Source: a virus. Taken from it: 34,525 nt of DNA. A program made the translations under genes and the position numbers. Positions 2,157-15,246 of this stretch are shown here, piece after piece. The stretch covers positions 1 through 34,525 of IMG/VR virus record IMGVR_UViG_3300027763_000141, one strand, 5' to 3'. Under the pieces are notes generated by a model. It saw only the letters and a list, made by a program, of their open reading frames with translations, ran no database searches and had not been told where the DNA came from. Positions within the stretch are counted from its first letter, which is position 1. Each line of letters opens with the position of its first letter.

Positions 2157-2486
2157 ATGGCAGCTCCCGGATTTATTAGCGTAGTACCGTACAGCAGCAC
2201 AACACCCGGTGCGGTTCCGTCTGCTGGCAACATGGTGACTTCTGAGATTGCCGTTAACTCGGCTGATCGGTTGATGTACGTCAAAGGTCCGGCAGGCACA
2301 GTAGTCACAATTGGTAACGGCGCAACAGGTGCTGGTGGCGATCAAATCTTTGTGCAGAACGGGCAGACTGTAACGGCAAGCTATACACTACCTGTTGGGT
2401 ACAACGCTATGACAACCGGTCCTGTAGCTATCAATGCAGGCGTGGTCGTAACCATTCCTTCGGGAAGTGTCTGGGCGATTATCTAA
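2157..2486 (+). CDS. Small tail-fibre-like protein with the same C-terminal module
   Basis: A 109-aa protein. The N-terminal half (GFISVVPYSSTTPGAVPSAG, then SEIAVNSADRLMYVKGPAGTVV) looks like a short fibre-attachment segment. The C-terminal half (YTLPVGYNAMTTGPVA to IPSGSVWAII) is a near copy of the end of the upstream 162-aa protein. The ribosome site AAGGAA lies just before ATG 2157. Its stop overlaps the next gene's ATG (TAATG at 2484-2488), implying translational coupling. It is best read as one of a series of small tail-tip or fibre components with exchangeable modules. The exact function is unknown. Confidence 0.68.
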   Translation: MAAPGFISVVPYSSTTPGAVPSAGNMVTSEIAVNSADRLMYVKGPAGTVVTIGNGATGAGGDQIFVQNGQTVTASYTLPVGYNAMTTGPVAINAGVVVTIPSGSVWAII

Positions 2487-2731
2487 TGGGATTGCGACTT
2501 AAAGCCTTTGCGCTCGGTACGGTTGAGGTCAACCCTGTTGATACAGCATCTAACGTGTCTGTGAACGTGCAGGCTGCGAATGGTGTGTTGTCGTATGCAG
2601 ACTCGGCGACTGGTGGTTTGTTCTTGCCATCGGGCACAACGGCACAGCGTCCGACACCTGCGACAGGGCAGATGAGATTCAATACCACGACAGGTTCAGT
2701 CGAGGTTTATAACGGCACAAGCTGGGGATAA
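2486..2731 (+). CDS. Short tail-fibre N-terminal-module protein
   Basis: An 81-aa protein that ends in a widespread phage fibre motif: LPSGTTAQRPTPATGQMRFN followed by TTTGSVEVYNGTSWG. The same motif sits near the start of the three glycine-rich proteins downstream (2734, 3755 and 5558), where a long Gly-rich adhesin domain follows it. Here the protein stops right after the Trp, so it looks like the attachment module without the distal domain. It starts at a TAATG overlap and ends two bases before the next ATG. It may be a complete small structural protein or a relic of a shortened fibre gene; the intact start, stop and spacing favour a functional gene. Confidence 0.65.
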   Translation: MGLRLKAFALGTVEVNPVDTASNVSVNVQAANGVLSYADSATGGLFLPSGTTAQRPTPATGQMRFNTTTGSVEVYNGTSWG

Positions 2732-2733
2732 AT

Positions 2734-3744
2734 ATGGCTGGTTCAATTAAATTAAACGCACCCTCGGGCGGATCAGTCACACTGAACGCAGTGGACACCG
2801 CATCAAACTTTGTAATGTCTGTGCCTGCCGCTGCGGGTGTGCTGATTAACGCTGACTCTGCGACTGGTGCGGCACAACTTCCTGTTGGCACGACTGCTCA
2901 ACGCCCTGCTTCGCCTGTGACGGGGCAGACACGGTTTAATACAACAATTGGATTTTCAGAGGTTTATAACGGAACTTCATGGATTTCTGTTGGTGGATAT
3001 GCAATAAGTTATTTGGTTGTGGCAGGTGGCGGTGGCGGAGCATCAGGTGGTGGTGGCGGTGGTGGTGGTGGTGGTTTGTTAGCAGCGTCAAATGTTTATG
3101 TTGCTCCCGGAACAGCTTACACAATTACTATTGGCGCAGGGGGTGCAGCCGCAACAAATGGGGTCGATTCTTCAATAGCTGGTTATGTTACAGCCACTGG
3201 CGGCGGATCAGGAGGGTCTGCTCCTAGTACCAACGCTACAAGCGGCGGATCAGGTGGTGGTGGTAATCCAAAAACACCCTCATTCGCAGGTGGTGCAGGG
3301 GCATTTGGGCAAGGTTATGCTGGCGGAACGGCTTTATATAATAATGCTTCGGATGTAAGAGGCGGCGGTGGCGGTGGCTCTGGGGCTGTAGGTGTATCTG
3401 GTGCTTCTGGCGGTACTGGTGGTGCTGGCGCTACATCTTCAATTTCTGGTACATCAACTGCATATGCTGGTGGCGGCGGTGCAGGATCAGAAGCCAACGC
3501 AGCAGGTGCTGGTGGCGCTGGCGGGGGTGGAACTGGCGCACAATATCCTGCTACTACAAATACCGCAGGTGGCACGAATACGGGTGGTGGTGGTGGTGGC
3601 GGTTACACAATTGCTAGAGCAGGCGGCAGCGGCGTAGTCATCATCTCTTATGCTGGCTCACAACGTGGTACTGGCGGAACCGTAACTAGCTCAGGCGGCA
3701 ACACAATCCACACCTTCACCACATCTGGTACTTATACGGCGTAA
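2734..3744 (+). CDS. Glycine-rich tail adhesin-like protein, paralogue 1
   Basis: A 336-aa protein. The N-terminal part (1-90) holds the fibre-attachment motif LPVGTTAQRPASPVTGQTRF then EVYNGTSW. From about residue 92 it becomes extremely Gly-rich, opening with ISYLVVAGGGGGASGGGG and containing many GGSGGGG, GGAG and GGTG blocks. The C-terminus is GTGGTVTSSGGNTIHTFTTS GTYTA. This order (YLVVAGGGGGG, Gly blocks, IHTFTxSGTF) is typical of the phage glycine-rich domain family, which I compare with polyglycine type II helix bundles such as the S16-type gp38 adhesin. The likely job is receptor binding at the tail or fibre tip. It is followed by a paralogue. The GGT/GGC tracts (for example 3036-3077) are prone to slippage in multiples of three. 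Confidence 0.8.
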   Translation: MAGSIKLNAPSGGSVTLNAVDTASNFVMSVPAAAGVLINADSATGAAQLPVGTTAQRPASPVTGQTRFNTTIGFSEVYNGTSWISVGGYAISYLVVAGGGGGASGGGGGGGGGGLLAASNVYVAPGTAYTITIGAGGAAATNGVDSSIAGYVTATGGGSGGSAPSTNATSGGSGGGGNPKTPSFAGGAGAFGQGYAGGTALYNNASDVRGGGGGGSGAVGVSGASGGTGGAGATSSISGTSTAYAGGGGAGSEANAAGAGGAGGGGTGAQYPATTNTAGGTNTGGGGGGGYTIARAGGSGVVIISYAGSQRGTGGTVTSSGGNTIHTFTTSGTYTA

Positions 3745-3754
3745 AGGAAAGAAC

Positions 3755-4690
3755 ATGACAGCATATGTAGGCGGCACAACAGGGTTTGGCCCACCATCAT
3801 GGACAACAGCCGGTCGCCCCGGCAGTCCTGTGAACGGGCAATTGGGGTGGAATAGTACGCTTGGCGTTTTGGAAGTGTGGAACGGTGCAGCTTGGCAGAT
3901 TGTTGCTTCAACTGCATACACTGTTACTTATCTTGTTGTTGCTGGCGGAGCTGGTGGCGGCGGTGGTGGCGGTGGTGGTGGCGGTGCAGGGGGATTGTTA
4001 ACCGCATCAGGAACGTCCGTTTCTCCCGGAACTGCATACACAGTTACAGTCGGCGCTGGGGGCAGTGGCGGCACTCTTTCAGCACAAGGTGTAAGCGGTA
4101 CAAATTCTTCTTTTTCGACCTTTGCTACTTCTACTGGCGGTGGTGGTGGTTCAAGTAATGTTGGATCAGGCAATGGTATTGCTGGCGGGTCGGGAGGTGG
4201 AGCAGCAGGTTCAAGTGCATCATATACAGGCGGTGCAGGTACTGTTGGTCAGGGCAATGCCGGAGGCACTAATGGCGGCGGTAATTTTGGGGGCGTATAC
4301 CCCGCAGGTGGCGGCGGGGGTGCAGGTGCTGTGGGCGGAACTGGGTCAAGTAGCGGCGGTGCTGCGGGTGGAGTAGGTGTTACAAACACAATTTCAGGCA
4401 CATCACTTTATTATGCTGGTGGCGGTGGAGGTGGTGCATCTACCACTAGTGGCGGGGCAGGTGGTAATGGCGGCGGCGGAGCTGGGACTACAGGCGCTAC
4501 GGGTACTGCGGGTACTGTAAATACGGGCGGTGGCGGTGGCGGTGCAGCTACCACAGGCGGCGCAGGTGGCTCAGGCATAGTTGTTGTTGCATATGCTGGC
4601 ACAGTAGCTCGTGGTACAGGCGGCACAATTACCATCACAGGCGGAAACGTCATTCACACATTCACATCAAGCGGTACATTTACAGCTTAA
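3755..4690 (+). CDS. Glycine-rich tail adhesin-like protein, paralogue 2
   Basis: A 311-aa protein with the same plan as its neighbour. It has a short attachment module (TAGRPGSPVNGQLGWNSTLG, then EVWNGAAW) within residues 1-48, the entry motif TYLVVAGGAGGGGGGGGGGG at about residue 59, a body of Gly-Ala-Ser-Thr blocks, and the conserved end GTGGTITITGGNVIHTFTSS GTFTA. Gly-rich loops between conserved aromatic strands are the likely variable receptor-contact surface. It follows 2734-3744 with a 10-base gap and a GGAAAG ribosome site. Divergence between copies is spread through the Gly-rich body while both ends are conserved, as expected for duplicated adhesins under diversifying selection (inferred). 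Confidence 0.8.
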   Translation: MTAYVGGTTGFGPPSWTTAGRPGSPVNGQLGWNSTLGVLEVWNGAAWQIVASTAYTVTYLVVAGGAGGGGGGGGGGGAGGLLTASGTSVSPGTAYTVTVGAGGSGGTLSAQGVSGTNSSFSTFATSTGGGGGSSNVGSGNGIAGGSGGGAAGSSASYTGGAGTVGQGNAGGTNGGGNFGGVYPAGGGGGAGAVGGTGSSSGGAAGGVGVTNTISGTSLYYAGGGGGGASTTSGGAGGNGGGGAGTTGATGTAGTVNTGGGGGGAATTGGAGGSGIVVVAYAGTVARGTGGTITITGGNVIHTFTSSGTFTA

Positions 4691-4704
4691 TTAAGGAGAC
4701 CATC

Positions 4705-5187
4705 ATGGTCACGCAAGAGCGGCTCAAAGAGTTGTTTGACTACCAAGACGGTGCGTTGATTCGCCGTAAGGATGGTCGCTCTGCTGTGATTGCAATGGGT
4801 GTAAAACGCTATGAGCGGGTGTCGGTTGACGGTAAAATTCAAGCATTGCACCGCATGATTTACCTGTGGCATCATGGTCATTTGCCCAAGACGCTTGACC
4901 ATATTGATGGTAATAGGGCAAACAACAAGATTGAAAATTTGCGTGAAGCTACCCAGCAACAGAATTGTTTGAACCGTAAGCATCACTCAAACAGTAAATC
5001 GCCGTACAAGAATGTGTATTTACAACCGCCAACAAAGAACGCTGAGTGGAAACGCAATTGGGTTGTAAGCGTTAATGTTGCAGGCAAGCGTAAATACATT
5101 GGTTCGTTTGAAGATTTAGAGTTGGCAGACCTCGTTGCTACTGAGGCACGAGATAAATTTCAAGGGCAATTCGCCCGTCATTGTTAG
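4705..5187 (+). CDS. HNH endonuclease with AP2-like C-terminal domain
   Basis: A 160-aa protein. Residues 45-83 carry an HNH core of the HNH_3 type: ALHRMIYLWHHG (H49), then DHIDGNRANNKIENLREAT (D65, H66, N73, N78). Residues about 98-152 (YKNVYL, WVVSVNVAGKRKYIGSFED, A..VATEARDKF) match the three-strand AP2-like DNA-binding domain often fused to phage homing endonucleases. A strong AAGGAG site at 4694-4699 sets the ATG at 4705. The gene sits between fibre genes, separating glycine-rich paralogues 2 and 3, and is the second HNH gene within 4.1 kb. Family assignment is firm; cleavage site and mobility are not visible. Confidence 0.9.
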   Translation: MVTQERLKELFDYQDGALIRRKDGRSAVIAMGVKRYERVSVDGKIQALHRMIYLWHHGHLPKTLDHIDGNRANNKIENLREATQQQNCLNRKHHSNSKSPYKNVYLQPPTKNAEWKRNWVVSVNVAGKRKYIGSFEDLELADLVATEARDKFQGQFARHC

Positions 5188-5196
5188 GAGATTCAT

Positions 5197-5544
5197 ATGC
5201 ACTTCGCTAAAGTAGTTGATTCAAAAGTGGTTCAAGTCATCGTTGCTGAACCAGAATTTTTCACGACATTCGTTGACTCAAGCCCCGGCCAATGGATTCA
5301 GACCTCATACCGCACACACGGTAATCAACATCCTGAAGGTCGCCCATTGCGTGGCAACTATGCTGGGATTGGTTATCACTACGACCCCGTAGCAGACGTT
5401 TTCTACGCACCACAACCCTACGCATCATGGGTACTCAGCCCACACACAGCGTTATGGGAAGCGCCTGTTGCTATGCCTGCTGACGGTAAAGCGTATGAGT
5501 GGGACGAAGCCACGACTTCGTGGAAAGAATTGGTTGTTGCTTAA
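5197..5544 (+). CDS. Small conserved phage tail-region protein, function unknown
   Basis: A 115-aa protein starting MHFAKVVDSKVVQVIVAEPE, with a central block rich in His, Gly and Tyr (GNQHPEGRPLRGNYAGIGYH YD) and ending WEAPVAMPADGKAYEWDEAT TSW. I recognise this layout (HFAKV...VTQVIVA, RxNYAGIGYxYD, WEAPxxxPxDGKxYxWDE) as a small protein repeatedly encoded among tail-fibre genes of aquatic phages, but no biochemical function is known to me. Several conserved aromatics and acids suggest a compact fold rather than a fibre. The AGGAG site at 5185-5190 supports the start. It follows the AP2-HNH gene and precedes the third adhesin paralogue. Confidence 0.72.
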   Translation: MHFAKVVDSKVVQVIVAEPEFFTTFVDSSPGQWIQTSYRTHGNQHPEGRPLRGNYAGIGYHYDPVADVFYAPQPYASWVLSPHTALWEAPVAMPADGKAYEWDEATTSWKELVVA

Positions 5545-5557
5545 TTAAGGAAATATT

Positions 5558-6529
5558 ATGTCTCTCGACGTACAAGGTACAGACTATTTAAAACTGCCGG
5601 TAGGTACTACGGGTCAACGTCCGTCTGTTCCTGCGTCAGGCATGATTCGCCAAAACTCCACAACAGGTAATCCTGAATGGTATGACGCTACAACGTCATC
5701 GTGGCTGCAATTTAGTCAACCTGCTGGGTATACGGTTAACTACCTTGTTGTGGCGGGTGGTGGTGGTGGGGCTAATTTAAGTGGTGGCGGCGGTGCGGGT
5801 GGGTATTTAGCTTCAACAACTTCTTTGTCATCTGGCACGGCTTATTCAATTACGGTTGGCGCAGGTGGAGCGGGCGGAACGGCATCAGGAACCGTCCCTT
5901 TCAATGGGGTAAGTGGTTCAAATTCGTCGTTTGGCGCTATAGCTACTAGTATTGGCGGCGGTTATGGCGGTTCGCAAGCTGCTGGAGCTTCTGGCGGTTC
6001 CGGCGGCGGTGGCGGTGATTGGGCGGCTGGTGGCTACATAGGCGGTGCGGGAACTTCGGGGCAAGGTTTTGCTGGCGGCGCAGCTGCTGGTAATGATTCG
6101 GGCGGCGGCGGTGGTGGCGGGGCGGGTGCAGTGGGTGGAACAGGAACGTCTGCACAAGCTGGTAATGGTGGTGTAGGGGTATCTAATAGCATTTCAGGTT
6201 CTGCCGTGTTTTACGCAGGGGGCGGTGGTAGTGGACCGTGGCGTGGAACTTTTCCGGCGTGTCTACCGGGAAGCGGCGGTAACGGTGGTGGCGGTGGCGG
6301 GGGGCCGACAGCAGGATCAAACGGCGTTGCTGGAACTGCCAACACAGGCGGTGGCGGTGGCGGTGGAAGTCGCAATACTACTGCTCAAGTTGTAGGTGGA
6401 GGCGCAGGTGGCTCAGGCATCGTAATCATCAGCTACTTAGGCTCACAGCGTGGCACAGGCGGTACGGTGACTAGCTCAGGTGGCTACACAATCCATACCT
6501 TTACAAGTAGCTCGACATACAACGCTTAA
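5558..6529 (+). CDS. Glycine-rich tail adhesin-like protein, paralogue 3
   Basis: A 323-aa protein with the N-terminal attachment motif LPVGTTGQRPSVPASGMIRQ followed by a Trp-rich end (EWYDATTSSW), the entry motif VNYLVVAGGGGGANLSGGGG at about residue 61, a long Gly/Ser/Ala body and the end GTGGTVTSSGGYTIHTFTSS STYNA. Its last 60 codons are close to those of paralogue 1 also at DNA level (compare 3655-3740 with 6440-6522), suggesting a fairly recent duplication or gene conversion. The ribosome site AAGGAA precedes ATG 5558. The likely role is the same as for the other two. Having three such genes suggests a mixed or switchable set of adhesins (inferred). Confidence 0.8.
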   Translation: MSLDVQGTDYLKLPVGTTGQRPSVPASGMIRQNSTTGNPEWYDATTSSWLQFSQPAGYTVNYLVVAGGGGGANLSGGGGAGGYLASTTSLSSGTAYSITVGAGGAGGTASGTVPFNGVSGSNSSFGAIATSIGGGYGGSQAAGASGGSGGGGGDWAAGGYIGGAGTSGQGFAGGAAAGNDSGGGGGGGAGAVGGTGTSAQAGNGGVGVSNSISGSAVFYAGGGGSGPWRGTFPACLPGSGGNGGGGGGGPTAGSNGVAGTANTGGGGGGGSRNTTAQVVGGGAGGSGIVIISYLGSQRGTGGTVTSSGGYTIHTFTSSSTYNA

Positions 6530-6541
6530 TAACTTGCCTTG

Positions 6542-6573
6542 CAGCGGTGCTACTTTTGCCAGTAGTGCTGCTG
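6542..6573 (+). other. Hairpin in the 101-base gap between adhesin 3 and the repeat protein
   Basis: CAGCGGTGCTAC (6542-6553) can pair over 12 positions with GTAGTGCTGCTG (6562-6573) if three G-U wobbles are allowed in RNA; the loop is 8 bases. No T-run follows, so it is a weak candidate for a terminator and may instead be a processing or attenuation element. The rest of the gap (6530-6630) holds only the AGAGG ribosome site of the next gene; I see no gene or convincing promoter in it. Confidence 0.35.
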
Positions 6574-6630
6574 TGTAGTTTGTGGTTAATACCGTGGGCT
6601 ATTTTTGCAGTGTTTAAACAGAGGTAACGA

Positions 6631-7335
6631 ATGCTTGGCCTATTCCCTATTGCGGGAGCGCCGTTTGCTGATATAGGGGCATCGAGCGTATCTGTCTCTG
6701 TTACGGTAACTGGAGTTACTGGCACGGGGGTTTTAGGCACGGCTACGGTTACTGCTGGTGCTACGGTTAACGTTACAGGTGTCACGGGTACAGGCGTTTT
6801 AGGCACGGCTACGGTTACTGCTGGCGCTACGGTCAACGTCACAGGCGTGACAGGTACAGGCGTTTTAGGTACAGCCACAGTTATAGGCAATGCCAACGTT
6901 AGTCTTACCGGCGTAGTGGGTACTGGGGTATTAGGTACAGCCACGGTCACGGCAGGTGCAACAGTTAACGTCACAGGCGTTGTTGGCACTACAGCATTAG
7001 GCACAGCTACAGTTACTGCTGGAGCTACTGTAAATGCAACAAGTGTTGTTGGCACAGGGCAAGTAAACTCTGTTACGACCAATGCTGACGCTAATATTTA
7101 CCCAACTGGGGTCAGTGCAACAGGAAGTGTTGGTACAGTATCGGTTAATTTAAATCTTGATGTATTCGTAACAGGCGTTGTAGGTACAGGCAGGATTGGT
7201 ACGTTCTTTGTGTGGAGCGACATCGTTCCGATTCAGGCATCTAACTGGGTAGACATCAATGACACGAATGCTGAAACTTGGGCGGATATTACGCCAGCGC
7301 AGACAACAGATTGGCAAGATATTCTTGCCGCATAG
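6631..7335 (+). CDS. Tandem-repeat fibre-like protein
   Basis: A 234-aa protein. After a short N-terminal segment (MLGLFPIAGAPFADIGAS) it consists of seven complete 22-residue repeats plus a partial eighth, from V26 on. The consensus is VTGVTGTGVLGTATVTAGAT plus two residues. Copies 1, 2, 4 and 5 are nearly the same and copies 6-8 are degenerate. The C-terminus (SNWVDINDTNAETWADI, then WQDILAA) contains a W..I pattern repeated three times. The regular Gly/Val/Thr repeat predicts a beta-solenoid or stacked beta-sandwich fibre shaft. Similar repeat proteins occur in tail-fibre regions of environmental phages, which with the position supports a virion or fibre role. The exact function is not known. 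Confidence 0.72.
   Translation: MLGLFPIAGAPFADIGASSVSVSVTVTGVTGTGVLGTATVTAGATVNVTGVTGTGVLGTATVTAGATVNVTGVTGTGVLGTATVIGNANVSLTGVVGTGVLGTATVTAGATVNVTGVVGTTALGTATVTAGATVNATSVVGTGQVNSVTTNADANIYPTGVSATGSVGTVSVNLNLDVFVTGVVGTGRIGTFFVWSDIVPIQASNWVDINDTNAETWADITPAQTTDWQDILAA
6706..7167 (+). repeat. Seven 66-bp tandem repeats (in frame, 22 codons)
   Basis: Units start at 6706, 6772, 6838, 6904, 6970, 7036 and 7102, with a partial eighth from 7168. Each unit encodes 22 residues around the motif GVLGTATVTAGATVN. Units 1 and 2 are nearly identical in DNA, while later ones differ mostly at synonymous positions and then at the protein level. The 66-bp period keeps the frame, so copy number could vary by recombination without breaking the gene. 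Confidence 0.85.
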
Positions 7336-10157: not shown

Positions 10158-12287
10158 ATGCCATTACAGAAACTGACCTTTCGACCCGGTGTAAACCGTG
10201 AGGGTACTAACTACGCCAATGAGGGTGGTTGGTATGAATGCGATCACATTCGTTTTCGCTCGGGTCAGGTTGAAAAGATCGGCGGGTGGACTCGCTTATC
10301 CAACGGTTCGTATCTCGGCACAGCTCGGTCAATGTGGAACTGGATTAACCTTGAGGGTACAAACTACCTTGGGGTTGGCACAAATTTAAAGTATTACATT
10401 GAGTACGGTGGTGGTTACTACGACATCACCCCAATCAGAAAGACCGTAAACCCCATGCTGGGCGCTGTACCTCCTAGCACTGGCAACCCGTTGGCTACTG
10501 CGTACAGTACGCTCAATGGCGGTATCACAGCTACAGCAACATCTTTGGTGCTGACTTCTGGTGCGTCGTTCCAAAACTCGCCGGGCATTATCAAGATTGA
10601 TTCAGAGCAAATCTACTACACAGGCAAGTCAACCAACACCCTGACAGGGCTTGTGCGGGGTTACAACGGTACAACTGCGGCTACTCATGCTACGAGCGCA
10701 GCGGTAGGCTGCTCGACGGTTACCGTGACTGATGTTGCTAATGGTGTGGTTAAAAATGACTTTGTGACCTTTAGCGGGTTAACCGCTACAGGCGGGTTTA
10801 CAACGGGTCAGCTTAACGTTGAGCAGCAAGTCTTTAACGTCATTACTGTAGATAAGTACACATTCAATGTGGCGGGCGTGTTTTCTACTAGTGCGGTAAC
10901 CACTGGTGGCGGCACGGTTGGGATTGCTGCGTATCAAATCAATACAGGTTTGGACATTTACGTTATCGGCACAGGCTGGGGTGCGGGTGTCTGGGGTCGT
11001 GGCGGCTGGGGTAGTGCGTCTTCTACTCAAGCTGTTGGCGCTCAGTTACGCCTCTGGTCAAACGACAACTACGGTCAAGACTTAATTATTGCACCACGCA
11101 ACGGCGGTGTTTACTATTGGAAGAGTGCTGATGGGCTGACTACCCGTGCTAAGTTGCTAAATGATTTGTCAACAACAGAAGGTTACGCTGGTCAGTACGT
11201 TCCAAACAAGACGCTTGAGATTTCAGCATCGTCAATTCAACGGTTTGTTATTTGTTTTGGTGCAAACCCATATGTAAGCGGAACACCTAATTCCGCCTTT
11301 AACCCGATGCTGGTACGCTGGTCAGACCAAGCCAATCAGTACGACTGGGTTCCTGACCCAACCAATCAGGCGGGTGAGTTTGGGCTTTCGCACGGCTCAT
11401 CTATCGTTACTTACGTCAATACTCGCCAAGAGATTTTAATCTGGACTGACTCGGCGTTGTACTCAATGCAGTATGTTGGCGCACCGTATGTGTGGTCGTT
11501 CCAGCTTTTGATGGACAACATTTCCATCATGTCACCGAATTCAATCTACACAGTCAACAACGTGACCTACTGGATGGGCAATGGTAAGTTCTACCAATAC
11601 TCAGGTCGTGTTGACACGCTGGCTAGTTCGCTGCGTCAGTATGTCTTTGAGGACATCAACCAGAATCAGTCGTATCAAGTGTTTGCTGGCGGTAACGAGG
11701 GTTACAACGAGATTTGGTGGTTCTATTGCTCATTAAACTCAGACACCATCGACAGGTATGTCATTTACAACTACCTAGATAAAGTTTGGTATTACGGCAC
11801 AATGGCAAGGACTGCATGGCTTGATTCAGGTATTAGGGAATACCCTATGGCTACGGATTACAACAACCGTGTGCTGTACCACGAGTCTGACGTTAATGAC
11901 GTTGCTGGCACAACTTCACTGCCAATTGAGGCTTACATTCAGTCTTCTGACTTTGACATTGGTGACGGGCATAACTTCGGGTTTGTGTGGCGTATCTTGC
12001 CTGACGTTAACTTCAACGGCTCAAACATTGACCAGCCGTTTGTCACAATGACGGTCAAACCCCGTCAAAACTCAGGTACGCCATATGGGGTAGCAAATAT
12101 TCCTGAAGTGCAAAGTGCAAGCAACTACACAGCAGTTCGGGCATACAACGTGCAGCTTTTTGATGGGCAGGTGTACACCCGTCTGCGTGGTCGCCAGATG
12201 AGTTTTAGGATTGAGTCTGGAGAACTTGGTGTGCAATGGCAATTGGGAACTCCCAGAATTGATATTCGCAATGACGGGCGGCGTTGA
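10158..12287 (+). CDS. Large tail-tube/DNA-stabilisation-type structural protein
   Basis: A 709-aa protein opening with PLQKLTFRPGVNREGTNYAN, then GGWYECDHIRFRSGQVEKIG GWTRLSNG and NWINLEGTNYLGVGTNLKYY. This start (FxPGVxRExTxYxxEGGWYxxDxVRFRxGxPEKIGGW) is typical of a long beta-rich protein found in many podoviruses and related environmental phages, similar in type to P22 gp10-like packaged-DNA stabilisation proteins that close the tail channel. The body is rich in Trp, Tyr and Asn and ends LGVQWQLGTPRIDIRNDGRR. There are no transmembrane segments or catalytic motifs. Its position before the large internal virion proteins supports a tail-hub or tube role. The general class is well supported; the exact position in the virion is inferred. 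Confidence 0.78.
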   Translation: MPLQKLTFRPGVNREGTNYANEGGWYECDHIRFRSGQVEKIGGWTRLSNGSYLGTARSMWNWINLEGTNYLGVGTNLKYYIEYGGGYYDITPIRKTVNPMLGAVPPSTGNPLATAYSTLNGGITATATSLVLTSGASFQNSPGIIKIDSEQIYYTGKSTNTLTGLVRGYNGTTAATHATSAAVGCSTVTVTDVANGVVKNDFVTFSGLTATGGFTTGQLNVEQQVFNVITVDKYTFNVAGVFSTSAVTTGGGTVGIAAYQINTGLDIYVIGTGWGAGVWGRGGWGSASSTQAVGAQLRLWSNDNYGQDLIIAPRNGGVYYWKSADGLTTRAKLLNDLSTTEGYAGQYVPNKTLEISASSIQRFVICFGANPYVSGTPNSAFNPMLVRWSDQANQYDWVPDPTNQAGEFGLSHGSSIVTYVNTRQEILIWTDSALYSMQYVGAPYVWSFQLLMDNISIMSPNSIYTVNNVTYWMGNGKFYQYSGRVDTLASSLRQYVFEDINQNQSYQVFAGGNEGYNEIWWFYCSLNSDTIDRYVIYNYLDKVWYYGTMARTAWLDSGIREYPMATDYNNRVLYHESDVNDVAGTTSLPIEAYIQSSDFDIGDGHNFGFVWRILPDVNFNGSNIDQPFVTMTVKPRQNSGTPYGVANIPEVQSASNYTAVRAYNVQLFDGQVYTRLRGRQMSFRIESGELGVQWQLGTPRIDIRNDGRR

Positions 12288-12538
12288 TGAGTACCGGCAC
12301 AACACAATCCCCAAACTTGCCAACACCTCCTGTTGAGTATGAGCAACGTTACCTTGAGCAGTTAACAAACGTATTGCGTCTGTATTTTTCGCAGCTAGAT
12401 AATCCGGGATTTTCTGCAGCAAGTGGTTTAAACTTGAATATAGATAAACTCCCGACCCAAACCAGTCTTGCTGACCTACGGGTTGGCGATGTGTACCGTG
12501 ACACAACCGCCGGTAATGTCTTAAAGGTCAAAGTATGA
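12287..12538 (+). CDS. Small conserved phage protein
   Basis: An 83-aa protein starting at ATG 12287, which overlaps the upstream stop (TGATG); a TTG one codon earlier is in frame but less likely. The N-terminal half contains YEQRYLEQLTNVLRLYFSQL, an amphipathic helix pattern that recurs in small proteins encoded next to large virion genes of similar phages. The C-terminal half (LPTQTSLADLRVGDVYRDTT, then NVLKVKV) resembles a short strand-turn motif. It ends in an ATGA overlap with the 903-aa gene (12535-12538). A structural or chaperone-like role is only inferred. Confidence 0.68.
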   Translation: MSTGTTQSPNLPTPPVEYEQRYLEQLTNVLRLYFSQLDNPGFSAASGLNLNIDKLPTQTSLADLRVGDVYRDTTAGNVLKVKV

Positions 12539-15246
12539 GCTTAGATAAAGTAGCCCAGCATTTAGCCGCCCAAGGGCGCGGCACCGATTCCGTACTTGTG
12601 CACATGTCACCAAAAGAAGTTGGTGCGCTGCAACACATGGCTAAACAACACGGCGGTAGTCTGTCGATTAACCCGCAGACGGGGTTGCCTGAAGCTGGGT
12701 TCTTAGACGCTATTTTGCCTGTGGTTGCAGGTGCGGGCTTAGCAATGATCCCCGGCGTTGGTCCTCTTATGGCAGCGGGTATTGTCGGCGGTGGCACAGC
12801 ACTCCTTACTAAAGACCTGAACAAAGGCTTGATGGCAGGGCTTGGCGCGTTTGGTGGCGCGGGCTTGGCTGGTGGAATTATGAATGCTGGCGCAGCAGCG
12901 ATGGTGCCGGAAGTAACAGCAGCGGGGAATGCCGCGAGTACCGCATTTGGAGCAGGCACCGCCGCAGATGCAGTTAACTTCTTGACTCCAGAAAACTTTG
13001 CAAATCTGTCGCCTGAAACATTGCAGTCACTGCAGGGTTCAGTAAGTGGGGCAGCTAACCCAGCAGATGTTATTAGCGCAGCAGCTAAGGCAAACACGGC
13101 GGCAACTGCACCCACTGGTTGGGATGCTATGACCAAGGGGTTCCAAGCTACCAAGTTTGACACCAACTACCTTAAGAGCAACATGATGCCTATCGGTGCG
13201 GCGCTGGCTCCTGCGCTTATGGGTGGTAATTTGTTTGGTGGTAACTCTGCTCAACAACAGCAGACAGCCAACGCTGGGTATGTTCGACCATACACGTATA
13301 GCCAGACTCGCAATCCTAACTACACCGGTGCGGGCACACCGTACTTTAATCAGACAATGACTGCGGGAACACCGATTGCTTCAGGTGACTACGGTTCACA
13401 ACTCATGCCTATGGCTGCAGAAGGTGGCATCATGGGTACTCGTTACATGGCAGAGGGTGGTATTGCTGATGTGCCTGTTGATCCCGCTGCAACACCTACC
13501 GCGCCAGTTAAAAAACAACCTGTATTAGCTGATTATTTAGCCGCAACACGCACCGCGACTGCAAACGCAAGAAACATTGAAGTACCGCCGATGCAAGCAA
13601 ATAACGTTGTTGTGCCAAATATGCAAGCCCTGTATGTTAACCCACAACAGCAGTACACAGCGCCAGTTAATCAAGTGCCCCAAGCGGTCACGGACTACAA
13701 CAACATGTTGGGGCAACGCGCACAGCAAGAGTACGTTGTTCAACCGCAACTAGCAGCGATGGTTCCTCAGCATTTGCGCCCCGCGCCTGCTGCGCCCGCT
13801 GCACCTTTGCCAGCAAATGCCGATACAACGACTCAGTTGTTCCAAAAATATTTAGGACGCGCCCCAGACCAAACAGGTTTTGCAGCAAACGCAAACGCAA
13901 CACCGGATCAAATTACTTACGGGATCATGACTTCTCCTGAGTACATGGCTGCAAACCCTAATGCACCGGTTCCTGCAGCTCCTACCGCGTCTATTGCACC
14001 TGTCGGCGGTTTGCCCGCTGCGCCCGGTATGCTTCCTACTTATACATACAACCCAGCTACACGTAGTTACGCTACAGCTCCTGTACGAGCCATGCCAGTA
14101 CCGATGCCGAACTTAGCAGCGCAACAGCAACTATTACAAGATCAACAACGTGCCGGGTACAACGCTGACCAAGGTGGCGGTGGTGGCGGTGGCGGTGGCG
14201 GTGGTGGCGGTGGCGGCGGTGGCGGCGGATGCGTTGACCCCGATGTTTTAGTTTTAATGGCTAACGGCAAGCAGAAAAAAGCAGGAGAAATTTGCGTTGG
14301 TGATTTTGTTTACGCCCCTCATCAAGACACTCTTGAGTACGGAAACTTTGAAATACTTGCCGCAGACATTATTACGCAACCAAAGTTGCTGCTTAAGTTT
14401 GAAGATAGCAGCACTATAAAAGTGTCTGACACCCATAAATTTTTAATGGTCGATGACTCATGGAAACAAATGTTGCACATTAAACTTGGCGATGTTATTC
14501 GCGGTATTACTGATAACAAACGCATTGTTGGTATGGAATACATTGGTGAAGGTAGCGTGGTTAAATTTAATGTTGACCAAGCGCATACGTATGTTTCAGA
14601 GGGTCTTGTATCACACAACGACAAAAAAGAAGGCGGTTTAATTAACTACGCAGCAGGTGGTGGCATTGGCTCTAGCTACACTGGATTTGATGATCAAAAT
14701 AATGCTATTGATGGTATGGCACAGTTCAATCAAGGTCCTCAATACCCAATGCAAAAGCCGCAAAACTTTGCGTACGGCGGTGGCATTACTAACAGCCGCC
14801 AAGCTGCCGTGCAGTCGTATGCTGCAGCCGCACAAAAAAGCCCATCTGCTATGAAAGAGTTGATGGCTAAAGCACAGGGCGGTGACTACGATGCTATGAT
14901 CGCTTTGAACAGTTTACAAGGTACACCTAACCAAAACTACGCTGCGGGTGGCGGCATCTACGATCTTGGTGGCTATTCTGATGGCGGGCGTTTACTTAAA
15001 GGCCCCGGCGATGGAGTCAGCGATGATATTCCTGCTCAAATTGGTAATAAGCAGCCTGCTCGTCTTGCTGATGGTGAGTTTGTCGTTCCTGCTCGGATTG
15101 TTTCTGAACTGGGAAATGGGTCTACAGATGCCGGTGCTAAGCGACTGTATGCCATGATGGAACGTGTGCAAAGTGGGCGCAAGAAGTCTATCGGTAAAGA
15201 CAAAGTTGCAGTGGATTCTAAAGCCCGTAAACACTTGCCAGTATGA
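12535..15246 (+). CDS. 903-aa internal virion-type protein carrying an intein-like Hint domain
   Basis: Domains in order: N-terminal conserved region (1-50, SVLVHMSPKEVGALQHMAKQ); a Gly/Ala-rich hydrophobic region (about 60-130) that could be membrane-active; a Pro/Ala/Gln-rich linker; a DUF4214-like segment at about 430-475 (LFQKYLGRAPDQTGF); 19 consecutive glycines (547-565); a Hint domain from C566 to N695; and a 208-residue C-terminal part with NYAAGGG motifs and a conserved end (KQPARLADGEFVVPARIVSE). The last block is common in large virion proteins of related phages. The first and last parts suggest a structural or ejected protein. The Hint domain suggests self-cleavage or splicing, so the mature form may be two chains or a shorter protein. 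Start and stop overlap the neighbouring genes by ATGA. Confidence 0.8.
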   Translation: MSLDKVAQHLAAQGRGTDSVLVHMSPKEVGALQHMAKQHGGSLSINPQTGLPEAGFLDAILPVVAGAGLAMIPGVGPLMAAGIVGGGTALLTKDLNKGLMAGLGAFGGAGLAGGIMNAGAAAMVPEVTAAGNAASTAFGAGTAADAVNFLTPENFANLSPETLQSLQGSVSGAANPADVISAAAKANTAATAPTGWDAMTKGFQATKFDTNYLKSNMMPIGAALAPALMGGNLFGGNSAQQQQTANAGYVRPYTYSQTRNPNYTGAGTPYFNQTMTAGTPIASGDYGSQLMPMAAEGGIMGTRYMAEGGIADVPVDPAATPTAPVKKQPVLADYLAATRTATANARNIEVPPMQANNVVVPNMQALYVNPQQQYTAPVNQVPQAVTDYNNMLGQRAQQEYVVQPQLAAMVPQHLRPAPAAPAAPLPANADTTTQLFQKYLGRAPDQTGFAANANATPDQITYGIMTSPEYMAANPNAPVPAAPTASIAPVGGLPAAPGMLPTYTYNPATRSYATAPVRAMPVPMPNLAAQQQLLQDQQRAGYNADQGGGGGGGGGGGGGGGGGGGCVDPDVLVLMANGKQKKAGEICVGDFVYAPHQDTLEYGNFEILAADIITQPKLLLKFEDSSTIKVSDTHKFLMVDDSWKQMLHIKLGDVIRGITDNKRIVGMEYIGEGSVVKFNVDQAHTYVSEGLVSHNDKKEGGLINYAAGGGIGSSYTGFDDQNNAIDGMAQFNQGPQYPMQKPQNFAYGGGITNSRQAAVQSYAAAAQKSPSAMKELMAKAQGGDYDAMIALNSLQGTPNQNYAAGGGIYDLGGYSDGGRLLKGPGDGVSDDIPAQIGNKQPARLADGEFVVPARIVSELGNGSTDAGAKRLYAMMERVQSGRKKSIGKDKVAVDSKARKHLPV
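14173..14229 (+). repeat. GGN trinucleotide tract coding for 19 glycines
   Basis: Fifty-seven bases of GGT and GGC codons lead directly into the Cys codon that starts the Hint domain. The tract is an imperfect microsatellite, so slippage would change linker length in whole glycines without a frameshift. Confidence 0.85.
14230..14619 (+). other. Hint (intein/BIL-like) domain coding segment, 130 codons
   Basis: C566 starts the domain (CVDPDVLVLMANGKQKKAGE then ICVGDFVYA, block A type). The B-block-like motif is VSDTHKFLM and the C-terminal blocks are VVKFNVDQAHTYVSEGLVSH followed by N695. The residue after the terminal Asn is Asp, not Cys/Ser/Thr, and no homing endonuclease is inserted; the length is that of a minimal Hint fold. 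These traits fit a bacterial-intein-like (BIL) domain rather than a classical intein. Its likely reactions are N-terminal cleavage at C566 and Asn-driven cleavage at N695, with splicing uncertain. The motifs are seen directly; activity is inferred. Confidence 0.85.

Follow-up and report, generated by a model that had tools for sequence, protein, structure and literature searches.

We have analysed a cluster of glycine-rich genes in the virus record IMGVR_UViG_3300027763_000141, the 34,525 nucleotides (nt) of which, the entire 34.5-kb record, are called here the window. Three of these genes, designated A, B and C after the slots that they occupy, lie in the tail region between positions 2734 and 6529 and are preceded by a short gene in slot 0. 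Our results show that whole bodies of these genes have been replaced by recombination, sometimes across slots B and C, and that a short N-terminal module (N-module) is private to the position of each gene, while the bodies are not. We propose, with a probability of about 0.7, that the cluster encodes adhesins of the tail-fibre tip, arranged in a row and each consisting of a docking module private to its slot, an exchangeable glycine-rich body and a conserved end, and that this row is renewed by recombination between phages. The genes of the cluster, and the parts of slot C, are listed below with lengths in amino acids (aa); identities are to loci of related phages (L numbers).

2486-2731, + strand: slot 0 stub, 81 aa; N-module at aa 44-80, no glycine-rich body
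2734-3744, + strand: slot A, putative adhesin, 336 aa; N-module at aa 46-83, Gly_rich_2 body at aa 92-306, end at aa 292-336
3755-4690, + strand: slot B, putative adhesin, 311 aa; N-module at aa 10-47, body at aa 58-280, end at aa 266-311
4705-5187, + strand: HNH endonuclease gene (PF13392, phrog_99), between B and the 115-aa gene
5197-5544, + strand: 115-aa gene (phrog_7759), probable adhesin (fibre) chaperone, between B and C
5558-6529, + strand: slot C, putative adhesin, 323 aa; N-module at aa 10-49, body at aa 61-293, end at aa 279-323
5585-5704, + strand: N-module of slot C, putative docking module, conserved between phages (97, 97 and 85% nt to L092 over codons 1-60)
5738-6391, + strand: exchanged body of slot C, glycine motifs and variable segments; same-slot relatives 53–75% nt, synonymous sites near random
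6424-6526, + strand: conserved end of slot C, downstream edge of the exchanged block; 95–96% nt to L099 and 85–88% to L092

Three paralogous genes

A first-pass annotation of this DNA had described the genes at 2734, 3755 and 5558 as glycine-rich paralogues. The open reading frames (ORFs) are as it gave them, and when A is used as the query within the record, B is found at E=6e-56 (59% identity), C at E=1e-48 (59%) and the 81-aa gene at E=8e-24 (63%), values far past chance, which confirms the paralogy of A, B and C (57–60% aa identity). The three proteins match the PF21722 (Gly_rich_2) domain at E values of 2.5e-16, 3.5e-16 and 1.9e-21, scoring 60.8, 60.3 and 77.6 bits over a cut-off of 24.3, and phrog_2295 at E values of 6e-42 to 7e-50. 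Their glycine share is 29–36%, and their C-terminal ends are IHTFTTSGTYTA, IHTFTSSGTFTA and IHTFTSSSTYNA. The motifs that the annotation took to be shared are present, but B diverges from them, as it has PPSWTTAGRP in place of LPxGTTxQRP and YLVVAGGAGG in place of YLVVAGGGGG. The 81-aa gene at 2486 does have the attachment module only, its ORF stopping at the N-module; it shows a weak match to PF18454 Mtd_N (E=0.0078, 16.5 bits, under the 26.3 cut-off). The two genes that separate B from C, coding for an HNH endonuclease and for the 115-aa protein, had been omitted.

Slots in related phages

Related loci (160) were collected by a scan with a marker gene and a scan with the adhesins, and three small profiles derived from the window, for the N-module, the body and the end, were mapped over all the matches together with the neighbouring genes. 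From the 161 sequences we picked by hand 17 arrays, the window and 16 loci, which share the gene order of the window. In these arrays the order is 0 – A – B – 115-aa gene – C as far as the contigs reach. Fourteen arrays span slot 0 to C, and they hold two bodies in one case (L097, in which B is a stub), three in 10 cases and four in three cases, namely L096, L151 and L089, in which the contig stops within C. Of the 14, these last three have a full adhesin in slot 0 and the other 11 a stub; additional stubs follow C in L006, L150 and L154, and slot A of L090 is split into two overlapping frames. Gain and loss of copies, which the first-pass annotation had anticipated, is thus seen in relatives, and neither the number nor the sequence of the copies is invariant among them. 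Two Gly_rich bodies can also stand in tandem in a single protein, as in L024 (1043-4591), L070 (4-1479), L111 (10063-11646) and L132 (708-2261), which is a different way of holding two bodies.

The best match in another genome falls in the same slot for 60 of 63 N-modules, 27 of 47 bodies and 34 of 47 ends. When trees were built from the 47 full-length proteins, the fewest changes of slot label needed were 4 for the N-module, 14 for the body and 11 for the end (minimum possible 3; mean with shuffled labels about 23–24), and a single clade is rejected both for the C bodies and for the B bodies (approximately unbiased test, p-AU 0.004 and 0.002). The clearest cross-slot pairs of bodies all join B and C. 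For the C body of the window the nearest body is that in slot B of L099 (76.5% aa identity; Shimodaira–Hasegawa-like approximate likelihood-ratio test, SH-aLRT, 97, starred), and for the B body of the window that in slot C of L092 (74.6% aa; SH-aLRT 94); the C body of L098 pairs with the B body of L108 (99, starred), and that of L150 with the B body of L151 (88). Some bodies are therefore common to different slots, as had been supposed.

Replacement of the bodies as blocks

Gene C of the window and of L092 illustrates how the bodies differ. Nucleotide identity is high over the first 60 codons (97, 97 and 85%), drops to 55–75% in the body and rises to 85–100% in the last 43 codons, and at identical residues the two genes use the same codon in 18 of 19 and 18 of 20 cases at the start, and in 5 of 11 and 3 of 13 cases in parts of the body. 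The same high-low-high profile is found in C of L099, A of L151 and B of L090. The N-modules reach 85% nt identity in 39 of the 306 same-slot pairs, and the bodies of 33 of these 39 pairs are below 65%. When both ends are at least 85% identical (16 pairs), the bodies are 59–67% identical in 14 pairs and 91 and 77% in the other two, which bears out the idea of mosaic bodies between conserved ends. In the pooled data, same-codon use at identical residues is 0.80 in the N-module, 0.67 in the end and 0.43 in the body, the value expected at random being about 0.34. Since the synonymous sites of the bodies are scrambled, which amino-acid changes alone cannot do, the bodies must have been replaced as blocks.

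Predicted fold of the body and the N-module

C was modelled from an alignment of 92 sequences (predicted local distance difference test, pLDDT, 93.7; predicted template modelling score, pTM, 0.85), and the fold predicted for its body, with high confidence, resembles that of the glycine-rich domains in Pam3 gp24 and in the Bxb1 tail tip. Residues 55-294 of the model align with a Bxb1 tail tip chain (Z 14.8, 180 residues, 3.2 Å) and with the tail fibre gp24 of phage Pam3 (7yfw; Z 12.5, 170 residues, 2.7 Å), followed by glycine-rich domains from two receptor kinases, ALK and LTK (Z 5–6), and a profile search matches the Pam3 fibre at E=2e-4. As in gp24, the predicted model is a beta-sandwich with a lattice of glycine motifs, in which the motifs are conserved and the tips are variable: glycine is present in at least 80% of the rows at 70 of the 323 alignment columns, and the differences between bodies sit mainly in loops, in nine variable segments interleaved with the conserved glycine motifs. 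The predicted fold and the structural matches back the adhesin-type assignment made in the first-pass annotation. The N-module (residues 11-54 of C) aligns with TSP3 583-624 (Z 6.0), with TSP4 29-77 (Z 4.4) and with the N-terminus of Mtd (Z 4.5 over 43 residues), which suggests that it may serve in docking or trimerisation.

Several points weigh against the proposal of docked adhesins whose bodies are exchanged. The slots were named by hand, from gene order and the offset of the N-module, so that the same-slot figure for the N-modules is partly built in, and the overlapping pairs that were compared do not amount to independent tests. The branches of the body tree are mostly weak, 5 of 44 being starred, and the bodies retain some slot signal, far less than the N-modules. 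Later scans added 58 further adhesins, and a single one of them, a number with little power, has an N-module at least 80% identical in nt to a slot of the window; this one fits the pattern (N-module 80, body 64, end 84). The matches of the N-module to known anchors are small, 42–49 residues at Z 4–6, which is under the safe level of the tool. The gp38 of S16 (6F45), the best-studied adhesin of this type, was not among the Foldseek and VIA matches listed, and receptor binding by the bodies would follow from their predicted fold and from what is found in other phages. Finally, 5 of the 17 arrays are mosaic without an HNH gene, so the endonuclease is not required.

Alternative explanations

Where do the new bodies come from? 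The first-pass annotation regarded the three copies in one genome as a reservoir, in which new adhesins would arise by gene conversion or recombination between the conserved ends within the genome. The paralogues do have conserved ends, a few ends cross slots (the B gene of L092 has a C-type end, 79.6% nt identical to that of its own C), and bodies move between B and C among phages. However, the ends of paralogues within a genome are no closer than those of different slots of different genomes (17 genomes; 53.5 versus 52.6% nt for the N-module and 61.0 versus 60.0% for the end), and within-genome pairs of at least 80% identity number 0 of 91 for the N-module and 1 of 46 for the end, the latter by rounding only (79.6%). 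The paralogues of the window use the same codon in 68 of 171, 67 of 171 and 69 of 182 cases, with 58.6, 59.4 and 62.6 expected, which is near random. The gene conversion that it suggested looking for between 3655-3740 and 6440-6522, the ends of A and C, is not borne out, as 64 of 88 nt are identical, and over the 17 genomes there was no signal of within-genome conversion among paralogues. We consider this explanation unlikely. Because the ends within a genome are not more alike, exchange is likely to involve corresponding slots of phages that infect the same cell, apart from an occasional transfer between B and C, and the partner is likely to be mostly the same slot of another phage.

A second possibility is that A, B and C are structural proteins, decorating the neck, the head or the tail tube and binding no receptor, and some of the PHROGs containing the N-module are annotated as virion structural or as head and packaging. 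The fold, the alternation of glycine motifs with variable loops and the turnover of the bodies match instead those of host-range adhesins, as described for Pam3 gp24 (PMC9608196) and for haloarchaeal viruses (PMC8651126), and we hold a purely structural role to be slightly less likely still. Third, the bodies could change where they are, through rapid point mutations driven by diversifying selection in an arms race and with no exchange of blocks, which would be expected to produce variable loops between conserved glycine motifs. This is contradicted by the synonymous sites: amino-acid selection alone is insufficient to give a same-codon use of 0.43 in the body against 0.67–0.80 in the ends of the same genes, and bodies from different slots cluster together on trees, so we rejected this explanation as improbable. 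Variation by a diversity-generating retroelement or an invertible cassette, to which the sub-threshold resemblance of the N-module to Mtd, the retroelement target of a Bordetella phage, could point, was also rejected and is the most improbable, as reverse transcriptase (PF00078) was found in 0 of 12 related records, nine of them at least 58 kb long, although records may be fragments (the search control was positive in 3 of 14 genomes), no inverted repeat of at least 16 nt lies within 2400-6600, and the body differs throughout and not as a short variable repeat.

We therefore return to recombination between phages as the preferred explanation, and propose the following model. The short N-terminal module would dock each adhesin, and probably trimerise it too, at its own position on the tail of the virion. 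The body would be a small beta-sandwich with a lattice of glycine motifs, whose variable loops at the far tip may touch the cell surface, and the third part of each adhesin is the conserved C-terminal end. Since each slot keeps its docking module and its end conserved from phage to phage, two phages that share a cell could recombine there and swap the whole body. Each slot would in this way gain new binding specificities, with a possible effect on host range, its place in the virion being unchanged, and exchange across slots would be rarer and clear only between B and C. Stubs without a body, such as slot 0 here, may be slots that lost or never received one. The slot rule would be a private docking end and a public body; if this is true, environmental phages without retroelements or inversion switches hold several binding specificities at the same time and renew each of them separately.

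A small gene beside the adhesins

The 115-aa protein matches phrog_7759 (E=7.6e-26), a family with no assigned function, whose members are labelled hypothetical in cultured phages infecting Pelagibacter, Methylophilales, Roseobacter and Synechococcus, and on which no paper was found in the open-licence literature of PubMed Central (PMC). A scan that started from this family and not from the adhesins gave 80 loci, of which 77 were usable (two were too short upstream and one was without a matching frame). With a fixed cut of 18% glycine and four GGG, the gene directly upstream is glycine-rich in 65 of the 77 viral loci, and the gene downstream in 17 of the 77; among the 34 loci in genome contigs, the gene directly upstream is glycine-rich in 18 of the 28 that were usable. 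It is also glycine-rich in HTVC025P, CRP-143, Melnitz and MW202520, a counter-example being S-TIM4, in which a ferrochelatase gene lies upstream.

What could be the role of this protein? Its model (pLDDT 94.4) has a single helix of at least four residues, at 21-24, and residues 1-72 align with residues 4-57 of the Pam3 fibre chaperone gp25 (7ypx_a; Z 5.7, 53 residues, 2.1 Å), the sole chain reaching Z 2 among the 106 solved chains aligned (VIA), with a Foldseek E value of 1.3. A profile search against solved structures returned one chance-level match (E=1.7), and in 63 members of the family no Pfam family scored above the cut-off and no relation to Tfa was seen. The gene lies directly downstream of a fibre or adhesin gene, as expected for Tfa, and the C-terminal helical trimerisation domain of the Tfa type was not found in the model. 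We think it probable, from the model and from the gene neighbourhood, that the 115-aa gene encodes an adhesin chaperone working like Tfa, most likely by folding the glycine-rich bodies, and because the helical trimeriser of gp25 is absent, we do not file it in the Tfa family. If so, phrog_7759, which neighbours glycine-rich genes in most of the viral loci examined, would be given a function. In comparisons with L006 and L151, nt identity is 62–68% over 5197-5370, the first half of the gene, and 85–98% over the second half (5371-5544); since an exchange border lies inside the gene, the 5197-5370 part may be transferred together with the B body.

Endonuclease genes

The HNH protein matches PF13392 (E=4.5e-13) and phrog_99 (E=3.9e-48). 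Fifteen copies are present in 12 of the 17 arrays, before B (4), between B and the 115-aa gene (5) and between the 115-aa gene and C (6), and five arrays have none (L085, L092, L095, L096 and L098 lack the HNH gene at the site of the window). An HNH domain, and presence or absence at intergenic sites, are as in free-standing HNH homing endonucleases, and this appears to be a homing-type mobile gene moving among the junctions, with predicted cleavage activity. At the same site, the HNH proteins of the window and L099 are 97% identical in aa, and 92–100% in nt over most of the gene; the high identity extends from the HNH gene into the end of gene B, the B bodies being 43–70% identical. Free-standing endonucleases of T4 make such tracts through co-conversion (PMC2988022). 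Similarly, the HNH genes at the junctions probably assist the exchange of bodies by cutting and then co-converting their surroundings. Upstream of the cluster (626-1189) the window carries a second, unrelated gene, endonuclease VII-like (phrog_1035, E=1e-15); as a relative (38% aa identity) lies between other genes in L006, it may be mobile too.

Comparison with known systems

Pam3, a lake cyanophage, offers a close parallel. Its gp24 is described (PMC9608196) as having a GGGGxGG lattice, a TNF-like (tumour necrosis factor-like) beta-sandwich and a variable distal tip proposed to bind the receptor, and the genes of the fibre and its chaperone were cloned as a single gp24-gp25 segment. The likeness extends to the body with its glycine motifs (Z 12.5 to gp24) and to the 115-aa protein (Z 5.7 to gp25). 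In contrast, Pam3 has one fibre protein with a helical N-terminal docking region, and here there are two to four bodies with slot-specific modules; gp25 has trimerising helices, which the model of the 115-aa protein lacks. The best structural match to the body is the glycine-rich ‘brush’ type domain of the Bxb1 tail tip (PDB 9d93; Z 14.8, 180 residues), which differs in belonging to a siphovirus of mycobacteria, where it is part of the tail tip complex. In the gp38 of T-even phages, which Trojet 2011 and Dunne 2018 (S16) are said to have described, conserved glycine motifs reportedly alternate with hypervariable segments, and one copy is said to sit at the tip of gp37.

In branched multi-tailspike complexes, such as those of phage CBA120 and reportedly of the Ackermannviridae, the bodies are enzymatic and not glycine-rich adhesins. 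The tailspikes TSP1-4 of CBA120 are parallel receptor-binding proteins on one virion (PMC8825819), an arrangement that is proposed here too. The baseplate anchor of TSP4 lies, by the same paper, in about its first eighty residues, and the stretch with which the N-module aligns (29-77, Z 4.4) is inside this anchor region. In haloarchaeal hafunaviruses, a glycine-rich adhesin gene in a hypervariable region is followed by a small gene and tracks host range; one adhesin gene is described there, in archaeal myoviruses (PMC8651126). The likeness to Mtd of BPP-1 is limited to the small N-terminal domain, as the lectin domain was not among the matches of the model and the related records searched here contained no reverse transcriptase.

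Glycine-rich adhesins, modular exchange and virions with multiple adhesins are thus each known singly. Less familiar is an arrangement in which the slots are fixed in a row and a gene for a probable folding helper lies between two of them, and searches of the open-licence PMC literature gave no description of several parallel glycine-rich slots that combine private docking ends with shared bodies and with stubs. A further reading, which we offer tentatively and to which we give somewhat less than even odds, is that the cluster represents a multi-slot platform of parallel glycine-rich adhesins, with private docking modules, interchangeable bodies supplied by recombination between phages, stubs as empty slots and a shared phrog_7759 chaperone of a so far unnamed kind (a gp25-like sandwich without the helical trimeriser), in which the clients B and C trade bodies and the distant A trades less. 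B and C could trade bodies because both would be clients of the shared chaperone.

The phage and other features of the window

The 709-aa protein encoded at 10158, the marker gene, has relatives among the stabilisation or structural proteins of DSL-LC04, of the Roseobacter phages CRP-901/902 and of the Pelagibacter phage HTVC023P, and the cluster would accordingly belong to a tailed, podovirus-like phage. As a check for prophages and hosts, the stabilisation-protein marker was searched among genome contigs, where no relative was found. The one contig found by a search with the slot A body, L216, shows 100% identity with the window along 3466 nt; it is the same virus and thus uninformative on mosaicism. 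L302 (CAIUZV010000298.1, 1-2402), the closest of the 34 loci of the 115-aa family in genome contigs, has a mosaic B – 115-aa gene – C array near that of the window, with a 115-aa protein 96% identical in aa. This contig belongs to a metagenome-assembled genome titled beta proteobacterium, and its binning gives a weak hint of a beta-proteobacterial host for a window-like phage, just a hint because phage contigs can be mis-binned.

Elsewhere in the window, a 903-aa ORF of the structural region (12535-15246) with no Pfam match at E 0.01 contains, after a long glycine run, a stretch from CVDPDVLVL to SHND, which we take to resemble a small intein or Hint domain. Downstream of C (6631-7335), a 234-aa protein made of VTGVTGTGVLGTATVTAGATVN-type repeats has no Pfam or PHROG match and is 88–94% conserved in aa in L006, L090 and L151. 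Finally, the adjoining fibre-type genes at 1658-2146 and 2157-2486 have a common C-terminal module, YTxPxGYNAxxxGPVxxxxGVVVTxPSGSVWAI, which matches phrog_34255 and phrog_5342 (tail fiber) at the far end of their very long proteins, and they form another shared-end family next to the adhesins.

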